From Rhodanobacter sp. C05 (GTDB lineage: Bacteria; Pseudomonadota; Gammaproteobacteria; Xanthomonadales; Rhodanobacteraceae), in assembly GCF_002001165.1 (NCBI RefSeq), contig NZ_MUNQ01000005.1:186001-250000 (forward strand): a DNA stretch of 64,000 nucleotides. The letters run 5' to 3'. The notes under the pieces were generated by a model, which saw nothing but the letters and a program-made list of their open reading frames with translations, searched no databases and was not told the DNA's origin. This document shows positions 39,687 to 43,617 of this stretch, in pieces. The position numbers and the translations under genes were made by a program. How positions within the stretch are numbered: position 1 is the first letter of the stretch; each line of letters begins with the position of its first letter.

Positions 39687-42614
39687 TTACTTCTTCGACT
39701 TGCCTGACTGCACCACCGGTTTTTGAACCACCGGCTTGCCGTCGGCATCAAGTACCTGTACGTCGCCCAGCTTCAGGTCACGGATCGGTGTCTCGATCTT
39801 CTTGAGGTCGCCGACGATCACCCAGGTCAGCTGGTCGGGCTTGATTACCTCGCCCGCGGCTGCCTGCACGGCGCTGTCGCTCTGCGCCTCGATCCGCGAC
39901 TTCAATGTCTGCACGTAATCGTCGGGACGGTGATACAGGGCAATACCCTGCATCGCGTTGAGTACCGCCTCGGTAGTCTGGTACTCGCCCGGCATGGCGC
40001 GGACATCGTTGTCCTTGATCTTCTGGATCTCTTCGTGGGAGAGCGGCTTCGTGCCGATGACCGCAGTGGCCTCCTTCAGCGTCTCGGCGATCGACGGTGC
40101 TGTCTGGTTGGTCTGCACCGGCGCATACAGCATGAACGGGCGCTGCCCCACGGCATTCTGCAGGAAACTGAAGGCACCATAGGCCCAATGCTTGTCCTCG
40201 CGCAGGTTCATGTTGAGGCGTGAAGTGAAGGTGCCGCCGAAGGCACCGTTCATGGTGCGGATCTCTAGGTTGTTCGGCGCCTCGGTGGGTGGCGCCACTT
40301 CACCGGCCAGGATCACCGACTGCAGCGAACCGGGGCGGTCCATGAGGTAGACACGCACCTTGCCGGGGTACTCCACCTTGGCGATGTTCTTGTGCGGCAC
40401 GGCTGTCGCCGGTGCCTTCCAGTCGCCGAACACGGTGTTGAGCTGCGGCACCAGCTTGTCCATCGCGATGTCGCCTGCCACAAGAATCCTGACGTTGTCC
40501 GGACGGATGTAGTCGCGCATGAAGTCGCGCATGTCACCCGTGTTCAACGCCTTGATCGACGTTTCGGTGCCGGAGCCGGTGAACGGGATCGCGTAGGCAT
40601 GTCCCTCGCCATACAGCAGCGGCGGCAGGGTGCGCAGTGCCATGCCGATCGGCTGGGCCTTCTCCTGTTCGATACCCGCCAGCCACTGGCTGCGCACACG
40701 TGCGACGTCGGCATCGCGGAACGCCGGGTTGCGCACGATATCGGCAAGCAATTCGAGCGACGGCACCAGCTTGTCGCTCAACGTGTCCAGCGTGGCATTG
40801 CAGTCGTCCAGTCCGCAGCCGGCATGGATGCTGCTGCCCAGGCGCTGGCGGCGCTTGTCGAGCTCGACCGAGTCCAGATCCTTGGTGCCCTCGTCCAGCA
40901 TCGACATGGTGAAGCTGGAAGTACCCAGCTTGCGGCCCTGATCGGCGGCATACCCGGCGTCGAACAGCAGCTGCGCCTGCACCAGCGGCACGTCATGGCG
41001 CTCGGCCAGCACCACCTCGATACCGTTGTCCAATTTCGCGTGCTGCAGGACCGGGAATTTGAGTTCGGGGAACGTGGTGACCTCGGGCACACCCTTGCTG
41101 CGATCGACATCGCTCTTCACCGTATGCCATGCCTGCCGCGCCGGCATCACCGGTACCGGTGCGCCCGGTGCAATCCCGAGGCCGCCGGTTTCGGCGACAT
41201 CGGCGGTGGAGGCCGTGGCGCCCTTGGCCAGCGGCGAGACGGTCAGGGTGTAGTCGCCCTTGCCGATCCACTGCTGCGCGGCAGCGCGCACCTGCTCGGG
41301 CGTGGCCGCCGTCATCGCAGCCAGATCCTTGCGCCATGCACCCGGATCGCCCTGGTACACCTGCGAGCTGGCCAGCAGGGTCGCCTTGCCGGAGAAGCCG
41401 CCGACATCTTCCAGCCGCCGCACATAAAACGCGCGATAGCGGACCTTGGCACGTTCCAGCTCATCCGCCGTGGGACCTTCTTTCAGGAAGGTGTTCCACA
41501 CGTCGGCCACGGCAGCCTCGACCTTGGCCGGATCGACGCCCTTCTTGACGTCCACCTCGAGCTCGAACTGCGACGCCAGCTCACCACTGCTCTGCTCCAG
41601 CGAGACGTCGTCGGCCAGCTTGTCCTGGTAGACCAGCCGCTGATACAGGCGCGAAGTTTTGCCAGTGCCCAGCACCATTGCCGCCAGACTGAGCAGGCCA
41701 TCGGCCTCGCTGCCGTCCTGGGGCGTGTTCCATTCCCGATAGATATGCACCTGCGGCACATCCATGCTCATGGCGCCGCGGGTCGAGCCGGTGCGCGGGA
41801 ACGACCATGGCTGCAGACGGGCCACCGGTGGGCCGGCCGGAATCTCGCCAAAGTACTTCAGCGCCTTGGCTTTGGCCTCGGCCGGAGTGATGTCGCCGAC
41901 CAACACCAGGGTGGCATTGGCCGGGCCGTAATAGGTGCGGAACCAGGTCTTGACGTCGTCCAGCGAGGCGGCGTTCAAGTCCTTCATCGAACCGATCGTG
42001 TCGTGGTGATACGGATGGTTCAATGGGTAGGCATTGGCCTCGATGTTCTCCTGCACGCGCAGGCCGTAGGGTTCGTTCTCATCCTGACGCTTCTCGTTCT
42101 GCACGACGCCGCGCTGCTGGTTCACTTCCTGCAAGTCGAGCGCATCGGGCAGGTAACCCATGCGGTCGGATTCCATCCACAAAGCCATGTCCAGGGCGGT
42201 GGTCGGGACTGTCTCGAAATAGTTGGTGCGGTCGTTGGCCGTCGTGCCGTTCATGCCGGTCGCGCCCACTTTCTCGAACGGCTGGAAGTAATTGCCGTCG
42301 TGATGACCGGAACGTTCGAACATCAGGTGTTCGAACAGGTGTGCATAGCCGCTCTTGCCGATCGGTTCGCGCGCCGAGCCCACGTGATACCACATCGCCA
42401 CCGCCACCACCGGCGCCTTGTGGTCCTCGCTCACCACCACGGTCAAGCCATTGGGCAGGGTAAAGCGGGTATAGGGAATATCCGGCAGCGCGACCTTGGT
42501 CGGGGCGGGTCCGGCGGACATCTCCGCCGGTGCGGATCCGGCCAGCGCCAGCGGCGTCCCGGCGGTCAGAGTCAACAAACCTGCGATGAGCAAGGCAAGC
42601 GGTCGCTTTGTCAC
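39687..42614 (-). CDS. Exported double-domain M16 zinc peptidase
   Basis: 975-residue peptidase of family M16 (insulinase/pitrilysin type) with a signal peptide (about residues 1-26, ending LALAG). The inverted zinc motif HLFEH is at His92 to His96, and the downstream Glu ligand falls in RGVVQNEKRQDENEP. The second M16 half (about 520-960) lacks the zinc motif, as expected for the inactive half of the clam shell. It would degrade peptides in the periplasm. Translation starts at GTG, supported by an AGGAGG site 6 bases upstream. The promoter region is shared with the sigma-54 controlled small gene on the other strand. Confidence 0.94.
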   Translation of the reverse strand: MTKRPLALLIAGLLTLTAGTPLALAGSAPAEMSAGPAPTKVALPDIPYTRFTLPNGLTVVVSEDHKAPVVAVAMWYHVGSAREPIGKSGYAHLFEHLMFERSGHHDGNYFQPFEKVGATGMNGTTANDRTNYFETVPTTALDMALWMESDRMGYLPDALDLQEVNQQRGVVQNEKRQDENEPYGLRVQENIEANAYPLNHPYHHDTIGSMKDLNAASLDDVKTWFRTYYGPANATLVLVGDITPAEAKAKALKYFGEIPAGPPVARLQPWSFPRTGSTRGAMSMDVPQVHIYREWNTPQDGSEADGLLSLAAMVLGTGKTSRLYQRLVYQDKLADDVSLEQSSGELASQFELEVDVKKGVDPAKVEAAVADVWNTFLKEGPTADELERAKVRYRAFYVRRLEDVGGFSGKATLLASSQVYQGDPGAWRKDLAAMTAATPEQVRAAAQQWIGKGDYTLTVSPLAKGATASTADVAETGGLGIAPGAPVPVMPARQAWHTVKSDVDRSKGVPEVTTFPELKFPVLQHAKLDNGIEVVLAERHDVPLVQAQLLFDAGYAADQGRKLGTSSFTMSMLDEGTKDLDSVELDKRRQRLGSSIHAGCGLDDCNATLDTLSDKLVPSLELLADIVRNPAFRDADVARVRSQWLAGIEQEKAQPIGMALRTLPPLLYGEGHAYAIPFTGSGTETSIKALNTGDMRDFMRDYIRPDNVRILVAGDIAMDKLVPQLNTVFGDWKAPATAVPHKNIAKVEYPGKVRVYLMDRPGSLQSVILAGEVAPPTEAPNNLEIRTMNGAFGGTFTSRLNMNLREDKHWAYGAFSFLQNAVGQRPFMLYAPVQTNQTAPSIAETLKEATAVIGTKPLSHEEIQKIKDNDVRAMPGEYQTTEAVLNAMQGIALYHRPDDYVQTLKSRIEAQSDSAVQAAAGEVIKPDQLTWVIVGDLKKIETPIRDLKLGDVQVLDADGKPVVQKPVVQSGKSKK

Positions 42615-42715: not shown

Positions 42716-42758
42716 GTGTCCGACTGTCCGGCAGCTAGCAGCCAGCTGTCCGCGGACA
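42716..42758. promoter_or_regulatory. Cluster of TGTC motifs and a 12-bp palindrome
   Basis: GTGTC (42716), CTGTC (42724) and CTGTC (42746) lie in one direction, and TGTCCGCGGACA (42747-42758) is a perfect palindrome. The cluster sits 70-110 bp upstream of the sigma-54 promoter, where an enhancer-binding activator would bind. (C/G)TGTC repeats are what has been described for PilR at pilA promoters. Assignment to PilR is inference. Confidence 0.4.
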
Positions 42759-42797
42759 CTCCACCCCTCACCGCGCTCGTCATAGAATAATAAACAA

Positions 42798-42810
42798 AAT
42801 CAATGAATTA
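42798..42810 (+). promoter_or_regulatory. IHF-binding site
   Basis: AATCAATGAATTA matches the consensus WATCAANNNNTTR at every fixed position and lies in an AT-rich tract between the putative activator sites and the sigma-54 promoter, the standard place for the IHF bend. Confidence 0.6.
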
Positions 42811-42826
42811 AAATAAAACAGAGGCT

Positions 42827-42842
42827 TGGCACGACGATTGCT
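42827..42842 (+). promoter_or_regulatory. Sigma-54 (RpoN) promoter
   Basis: TGGCACG-N4-TTGCT matches the -24/-12 consensus, with GG (42828-42829) and GC (42840-42841) exactly 12 apart. Transcription would start near 42853, about 40 bases before the small exported protein. The AT-rich upstream DNA contains a perfect IHF site. Confidence 0.8.
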
Positions 42843-42891
42843 CTTACAGATTTAGCAGGGATACCACACACACTCAATCGGAGACATGACC

Positions 42892-43095
42892 ATGAAATTC
42901 GAAACCTTTATGTTGCGCACACTGTTCGTTGCCTGCATGGCCGTTTGCTCGCTGATCATGGGTGCCATGCTGACCGCCACTCCATCCAGCGCGCAGCTAG
43001 CCGCCAACCGGACCGTGAGTTCCATCCTGCTGTCCGCGCCGACCACCTGCGCTTTGCCGGCGGACGGCGTGGTTTGCCCGCGGCAAAACGGTTGA
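42892..43095 (+). CDS. Small exported protein under sigma-54 control
   Basis: 67-residue protein I do not recognise. It has an N-terminal signal-like helix (MLRTLFVACMAVCSLIMGAM) and a probable cleavage site after SSA, leaving a mature peptide of about 33 residues with two cysteines (CALPADGVVC). The ATG at 42892 is preferred to the one at 42886 because GGAG lies 8 bases upstream of it and only 2 from the other. The promoter is of the sigma-54 type with an IHF site. A secreted peptide, an envelope component or a signal are all possible. No toxin, bacteriocin leader or pilin motif is visible. Confidence 0.7.
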   Translation: MKFETFMLRTLFVACMAVCSLIMGAMLTATPSSAQLAANRTVSSILLSAPTTCALPADGVVCPRQNG

Positions 43096-43146
43096 GCGCA
43101 CCCCGCGAATCACCACTGCACCGTGCAGGCACGTGATAATGACCGG

Positions 43147-43617
43147 ATGCTGCATGTCATCCTGTTTCGTCCCGAGATCCCGCCGAACACCGGCAATGTG
43201 ATTCGCCTGTGCGCGAACACCGGCGCTGCGCTGCACCTGATCCGCCCGCTCGGTTTCGAGCTCGACGATGCACGGTTGCGCCGCGCCGGCCTGGATTACC
43301 ACGAGTACGCCCGCGTTGCGGTGCATGACGATCTGGCCGGATGCCTCGATGCGATTGGCACACCACGTGTGTTCGCTTTTACCACCCGCGGCCGGGTTGC
43401 CCATGTCGATGCGCAATTTGCCGATGGTGATGCACTGCTGTTCGGTTGCGAAACCGCGGGATTGCCGGCGGAGGTACTGGAGACGATCCCCGTCGAACAG
43501 CGACTGCGCCTGCCGATGCGTGCGGACAGCCGCAGCCTGAACCTGTCGAACACGGTCGCCGTAGCGGTGTACGAGGCCTGGCGCCAGCTCGGTTTCCCCG
43601 GTGCCGCGAACGTCTGA
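43147..43617 (+). CDS. trmL: tRNA (cytidine/uridine-34-2'-O)-methyltransferase TrmL
   Basis: 156-residue SPOUT-class methyltransferase that 2'-O-methylates the wobble base of tRNA-Leu. The knot signatures are [33 protein letters not shown] and the final [20 protein letters not shown]. The length and order agree with E. coli TrmL (157 residues). The ATG at 43147 is 51 bases past the stop of the small exported protein, and read-through from the sigma-54 promoter cannot be excluded. ubiJ follows after 26 bases. Confidence 0.95.

Follow-up and report, generated by a model that had tools for sequence, protein, structure and literature searches.

A family of predicted small membrane proteins sharing a sigma-54 enhancer-promoter unit with an exporter gene run

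Between an M16 peptidase gene and a SpoU-family methylase gene, the window (the whole 64,000-nucleotide stretch of DNA analyzed here) contains a short open reading frame (ORF) with its own control region (Table 1). The first-pass annotation described a complete sigma-54 architecture in front of this ORF, and direct reading of the sequence confirmed it: the half-sites, the palindrome, the IHF consensus, and the promoter all lie where they were reported within positions 42717 to 43095. The TGTC cluster consists of copies at 42717, 42725, and 42747, and the GG and GC of the promoter are 10 bp apart in a TGGCAC-N5-TTGC context. An alternative in-frame ATG is present at 42886, upstream of the ORF start, while relatives begin at MKFE. 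The methylase, presumably TrmL-like as judged by recognition, adjoins 42 of the 78 members of the protein family described below; the remaining 36 are paralogues located elsewhere.

Table 1. Features of the small-protein locus and the candidate regulator (positions are those of the window unless a contig is named)
Feature	Position	Strand	Evidence or remark
M16 peptidase, divergent flanking gene (synteny marker)	39687..42614	-	Pfam PF00675/PF05193
Enhancer half-site TGTCCG (1)	42717..42722	+	Sequence read
Enhancer half-site TGTCCG (2)	42725..42730	+	Sequence read
Enhancer palindrome TGTCCGCGGACA	42747..42758	.	Inner GTCCGCGGAC in 76/78 members
IHF consensus AATCAATGAATTA	42798..42810	+	16 bp before promoter
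Sigma-54 promoter TGGCACGACGATTGCT, -24 GG and -12 GC	42827..42842	+	Own TGGCA-N8-GC in 77/78 members
Ribosome-binding site GGAGA	42880..42884	+	Sequence read; partly conserved in start-aligned consensus
ORF, 67 codons plus stop; predicted MKFE-family small membrane protein (trmL-linked subtype)	42892..43095	+	
Predicted N-terminal transmembrane helix, codons 2 to 28, with C15 and C19	42895..42975	+	pN/pS 0.30; AlphaFold2 helix 2 to 28
Tail loop C-x8-C-P, codons 52 to 64	43045..43083	+	pN/pS 0.25 versus 0.71 for linker
SpoU-family methylase, flanking gene (synteny marker)	43123..43617	+	Pfam PF00588
P0001, sigma-54 response regulator	C29:135778-137130		Neighbor of kinase P0002

The protein encoded by the ORF gave no match in Pfam or NCBIfam at an E value of 0.001, and a profile of its family (alignment A1) matched no PDB sequence at an E value of 1 or better. 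When 22 methylase-linked genes, each 67 codons long, were compared, pN/pS was 0.45 for the whole ORF, with values of 0.30 for codons 2 to 28, 0.71 for the linker, and 0.25 for the cysteine loop. At the sequence level, the ORF is under purifying selection and is conserved beside the trmL-like gene, and the segmental pN/pS values make it very likely that the protein is real and has two parts under constraint. If the ORF were incidental and the conserved element were a regulatory RNA, or no more than a control region, the shortness of the ORF and the strong conservation of the noncoding sequence upstream would be accounted for, but this is very improbable given the segmental constraint and the finding that paralogues share protein sequence beginning at the start codon. 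All 22 orthologues also keep the reading frame open, although openness alone says little, another frame being open in 19.

A search at the protein level located the ORF in 33 of 60 related genomes, all of the window's genus. When alignment A1 (34 members) served as the query and the best 24 candidates were scored in each genome, family matches were obtained in 44 of 250 genomes of the order. All 44 were among the 52 genomes sampled from the window's family (probably Rhodanobacteraceae; 12 genera), and under the same scoring of the best 24 candidates none of the 198 genomes from the rest of the order gave a match; the small proteins appear so far to occur in one bacterial family only. Named records with a family protein belong to Rhodanobacter, Dyella, and Frateuria and to one Lysobacterales MAG. 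Each positive genome contained between 1 and 10 matches among the 24 best candidates scored, so that true copy numbers may be higher, and both tandem and dispersed copies of the genes occur in some genomes. In one of them (G224), seven nearly identical units of enhancer, promoter, and 43-aa small ORF (L261, L262, and L264 to L268) lie inside a dispersed repeat of ∼0.8 to 1.2 kb, 80 to 86% identical to the L261 copy; an eighth unit (L263) has diverged and is without the repeat. Seventy-nine protein similarity hits were read in detail, of which 78, chosen by protein similarity alone, were kept as members. The one that was dropped (L055, genome G010) matches the family in its tail but not in its N-terminal part, and no promoter was found for it; it may be a decayed copy or an assembly fault.

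The 78 members are 28 to 73 residues long, and all contain an 18-residue hydrophobic stretch that starts at residue 6 to 13. The AlphaFold2 model of the window protein has a helix at residues 2 to 28 (pLDDT of 79, 91, and 72 in the first three blocks of 10 residues); its mean pLDDT is 63.2, and it is poor beyond residue 30, with low confidence at the tail loop. Within the helix, C15 is present in 75 and C19 in 74 of the 78 members, and E4, L11, and M26 are invariant in all 34 aligned members, including paralogues with different tails. A tail follows in 74 members, the other four (28 to 31 residues) having none. In the tail loop, C53 and D58 to P63 are invariant in 14/14 sequences. Two tail cysteines are found in 51 members, none in 26, and one in a single member, and their pairing suggests a predicted disulfide; it does not amount to 51 independent events, because 41 of the 51 are trmL-linked (methylase-linked) orthologues, the other 10 being other paralogues.

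The product was originally described as an exported protein with a signal peptide. An N-terminal hydrophobic segment is indeed present, but it is better explained as a membrane anchor than as a signal peptide that is cleaved off, because it is the most widely conserved part of the family and a mature part after it is missing from the four tailless members. A single hydrophobic segment and short length, the properties of a small inner-membrane protein, are common to all 78 members. The product looks, on the evidence of sequence comparison, membrane anchored rather than freely secreted, probably as an anchor with an optional periplasmic tail, and cleavage could still take place in the tailed members. 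A secreted protein or a ligand would likewise be compatible with the strong constraint on the cysteine loop.

Small size and a single hydrophobic segment would also be expected of a membrane-active stress peptide, produced under envelope stress and lowering the membrane potential and slowing metabolism, as is reported for YohP of Escherichia coli, or acting in the manner of Hok-like type I toxins. The members of 28 to 31 residues are close in size to YohP (27 aa; PMC12719787), and the dispersed and tandem copies seen in some genomes would be in keeping with such an element. However, the specific conservation of the helix (E4, C15, and C19) and of the tail loop points to a protein partner, and we consider a stress peptide unlikely.

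The control region is conserved together with the protein. A TGGCA-N8-GC promoter lies 57 to 65 bp before the start codon in 77 of the 78 members, and GTCCGCGGAC is present in 76, always 75 to 80 bp before the promoter TGG; the 12-mer TGTCCGCGGACA is exact in 53. One member (L067), a second tandem copy behind the L015 gene, has neither promoter nor palindrome of its own, its sole promoter match, 308 bp away, being the promoter of the first copy, and another (L080) has a palindrome with one changed base. At least one extra TGTCCG is found in 74 of the 76 palindrome-bearing members, and across the family these further copies are mostly 20 to 23 and 29 to 33 bp upstream of the palindrome. The IHF consensus is more restricted: it occurs in 25 of 41 trmL-linked members (shuffle expectation, 0.5%), beginning 28 to 29 bp before the TGG (29 bp in 24 of them), but in only 2 of 35 other members, most other paralogues being without an IHF site. 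In the comparison with relatives that was originally recommended, promoter, enhancer, and ORF are thus conserved according to these counts and pN/pS. A chance promoter or a chance ORF was rejected on the same grounds, i.e., conservation of the promoter and enhancer across members and the constraint seen in pN/pS.

On its own, the palindrome is not enriched, GTCCGCGGAC having 7 sites in the window's genome compared to 11 for a reversed control. Palindrome and promoter together are enriched, with 6 sites versus 0 for the reversed control in that genome and 173 versus 2 when the 52 family genomes are summed (47 genomes contain the site); because the palindrome-promoter gap was set to 57 to 80 bp after the members had been read, spacing in these genome counts is not independent of the members. 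An earlier enhancer pattern with a gap of 35 to 65 bp matched in 9 of 60 genomes and missed nearly all family sites. A promoter-to-start pattern, which also matched many coding places, was left out of the counts.

The six palindromes with a promoter at the right distance, of the seven in the window's genome, precede the window gene, two paralogues, a pair of stand-alone MacB/FtsX-type permease genes (C22; L125, 6507 to 9048, minus strand), an alpha/beta hydrolase ORF (C28; L126, 8786 to 10207, plus strand), and a long gene run on contig C29. One of the C22 permeases is weakly ADOP-like, and the promoter of the pair has a weaker −12 element; the hydrolase behind the C28 enhancer-promoter unit is proline iminopeptidase-like but below the cutoff. 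The C29 run, which was read except for ∼6.5 kb in the middle, has the order HlyD, ABC ATPase, TolC, several FtsX permeases, a DUF885 protein, the regulator P0001, and the kinase P0002, and it may be transcribed as one unit over ∼24 kb. Control of this kind was initially considered to be dedicated to one tiny product; it is instead common to a regulon.

In total, 148 listed sites from 39 genomes were classified (eight further family genomes have sites outside this list): 90 are followed within 420 bp by a small-protein gene, 37 have a P0001 orthologue 6 to 28 kb downstream in the same orientation (chance per site, ∼0.4%), and 21 belong to neither class. By number of listed sites, therefore, the commonest output is the predicted small membrane proteins rather than the pump. 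P0001 is present in 38 of the listed genomes, and in 37 of them its own gene run shares the enhancer-promoter unit; in the sole exception (G258) the site and P0001 are on different contigs. HlyD, ABC, and FtsX genes lie between the site and P0001 in all runs that were read, four of them from these genomes (G000, with a gap of 6.5 kb, G135, G095, and G266) and one from G047. TolC lies between site and regulator only in G000; the runs of G135 and G095 are compact (HlyD, ABC, FtsX, P0001, and kinase, without TolC between), and G266 has a TolC-like gene on the other side of the site. Membership of the small-protein genes in the exporter regulon is well supported by this shared unit.

The exporter unit looks older than the small proteins, because the enhancer also heads HlyD-ABC genes in families without a small-protein match. 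This is the case in three genomes of three other families (G047, G055, and G038; L275, L276, and L277), in which the enhancer and promoter are 53 to 64 bp apart, compared to 75 to 80 bp above, and in which no small-protein match was found. The run continues to P0001 and the kinase in G047, and the regulator of G038 lies elsewhere. Half-sites persist at the HlyD gene in a genome without the palindrome (L273). Small proteins seem to have been recruited to the exporter unit, and they would not be needed for the pump, since P0001 occurs in eight genomes of the window's family in which none of the best 24 candidates scored was a small-protein match; of these genomes, five (G066, G088, G144, G183, and G243) are also without an exact enhancer-promoter site.

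Co-regulation with an HlyD/ABC/FtsX exporter through a common enhancer could mean that the small proteins are themselves exported: a conserved leader with a variable tail, e.g., a peptide signal or bacteriocin, would be released from the periplasm by the MacB-type pump. Tails vary while the leader is conserved, cysteine-bearing tails mostly have two cysteines, the cysteine loop is strongly constrained in the trmL-linked type, and the adaptor is weakly similar to DarC, the darobactin export adaptor (80 bits versus a cutoff of 450), all of which accord with a role as cargo. Against this, 4 of the 78 members are tailless, and the leader is kept across paralogues with different tails, its E4, L11, and M26 being unchanged in 34/34 aligned members. 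Cargo is, in our judgment, improbable, and we favor a small protein that remains in the membrane as a member of the exporter regulon.

As to which protein activates this regulon, the window's genome has seven sigma-54 activator domain matches, four of them strong: a PilR-like protein, an NtrC-like protein, P0001, and a 501-residue protein (L119). The first two are presumably what their names suggest, having been named by recognition and gene order, and each adjoins a kinase, that of the PilR-like protein (L116) being PilS-like. PilR sites contain TGTC, and the TGTC cluster led the first-pass annotation to suggest a link to PilR and pili, which found no support. Contig C24, with three pilin hits, carries none of the seven GTCCGCGGAC sites in the genome. 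The one plausible sigma-54 site there, TGGCACACAACCTGCT, lies between the two strong pilin hits and may be the pilin promoter; the 200 bp preceding it contain no TGTCCG. The regulator that the enhancer does precede, in 37/38 listed P0001-bearing genomes, is P0001. On these three grounds, PilR was set aside as an unsupported candidate for the activator.

P0001, and not PilR, is the likely candidate activator on sequence grounds. It is present in 43 of the 44 genomes with small proteins, and the 30 family orthologues read show almost no variation in the HTH. The exception, G125, keeps the small gene beside the methylase, its enhancer and promoter intact (L272, 2433 to 2800), and has no P0001 orthologue among its enhancer-binding proteins (EBPs), its four strong activators matching PilR, NtrC, and two others. 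A gene and enhancer without P0001 would be explained if the same gene and regulon were driven by another EBP, i.e., the 501-residue L119 protein, PilR, or several proteins together, but the placement of the enhancer before P0001, the near-invariance of the P0001 HTH, and the lack of the motif at the site near the pilin genes make this decidedly unlikely, and P0001 is retained as the candidate below.

Two further matches to the 16-mer sigma-54 pattern were recorded in the window's genome. One is ∼50 bp upstream of a glnA-like gene (L131, about 7210, minus strand); we recognized this gene by eye, and since glnA would be expected to be under NtrC control, the match can serve as a positive control. 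The other is between nusG-like and rplK-like genes (L130, about 7282, minus strand) and is possibly due to chance. In X. oryzae, a figure legend lists three NtrC-family proteins beside FleQ, PilR, and PrpR (PMC8657755).

Taking these findings together, we propose the following. (i) Kinase P0002 would phosphorylate its neighbor P0001, phosphorylated P0001 would bind the TGTCCG half-sites, IHF would bend the DNA at the window copy, and the small gene would be transcribed by sigma-54 RNA polymerase. (ii) The product would be a single-pass inner-membrane protein with a cytoplasmic N terminus and a periplasmic tail containing a probable C-x8-C disulfide loop. (iii) The same enhancer-promoter heads the gene run that encodes the HlyD/ABC/FtsX exporter (with TolC in the window's genome) and ends with P0001 and P0002, and because it is common to the small genes and the exporter run, kinase, regulator, pump, and small proteins would constitute one regulon, probably an envelope response. 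(iv) From within the membrane, the small protein would modulate the pump or the kinase, as an accessory factor or by feedback. In P0002, a loop of some 20 to 30 residues separates two hydrophobic stretches, and this short-loop layout is known from kinases that sense via membrane partners. We give the explanation as a whole, i.e., an anchored small protein in a P0001-driven sigma-54 regulon that modulates the pump or kinase, an even chance of being correct; the modulator role, considered alone, is tentative and somewhat doubtful.

A more speculative reading, which we think improbable, is that lineage-specific membrane-tethered peptides are private ligands of a sigma-54 two-component exporter. 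The fixed helix would dock on the kinase or permease, and the swappable tail, which is a disulfide loop in one subtype, would tune or amplify signaling. If this is true, duplication of the enhancer-promoter-ORF unit (at least 10 matches in one genome) would diversify the response.

What had been an isolated curiosity becomes part of a putative regulon whose candidate components (activator, kinase, enhancer, and pump) are all approachable by gene removal in a soil bacterium. The trmL-linked layout, with its constrained helix, free linker, and constrained loop, offers a clean route to the role of very small membrane proteins.

The enhancer sequence TGTCCGCGGACA was not found in the open-licence PMC literature, and nothing was found there, by titles and abstract beginnings, on a Rhodanobacter sigma-54 EBP or a sigma-54 regulon of small membrane proteins. 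The parts are nevertheless of known kinds, and what may be new, in that we did not find it in print, is the use of lineage-specific small membrane proteins as the commonest output of a sigma-54 exporter regulon. In ZraP/ZraSR and PspF-type responses, a sigma-54 activator has a small envelope protein as an output. The system described here is similar in combining such an activator with a predicted small envelope protein, but the output protein is another one, and P0001 scores 272 bits against a ZraR cutoff of 760 and 247 against a PspF cutoff of 444. The PilR/pilA regulon likewise has sigma-54 and TGTC-containing sites, with a different regulator and enhancer. YohP of Escherichia coli resembles the small proteins in being a tiny, stress-linked membrane protein (PMC12719787), but in this comparison by description it has 27 aa, whereas 74/78 members here are tailed and 51/78 have two tail cysteines.

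The exporter run resembles MacAB-TolC in containing an HlyD adaptor, an ABC ATPase, and MacB_PCD/FtsX permeases, together with a regulator and kinase, in one run, with TolC in the window's genome, and its adaptor and TolC pass the generic subfamily cutoffs (TIGR01730 and TIGR01844). It differs from MacAB-TolC in that the ATPase is separate from several permeases and the sigma-54 regulator has its own enhancer; moreover, the adaptor is below the MacA cutoff, and the C22 permease, on which the permease scan was made, is below the MacB cutoff. AcrZ, MgrB, and similar small inner-membrane modulators are short, span the membrane once, are controlled by stress, and bind either a pump or a sensor kinase. 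The small proteins described here are likewise short, predicted to be single pass, and apparently co-regulated with a pump and a kinase; they differ from AcrZ and MgrB in being under predicted sigma-54 control, multicopy, and variable in their tails.
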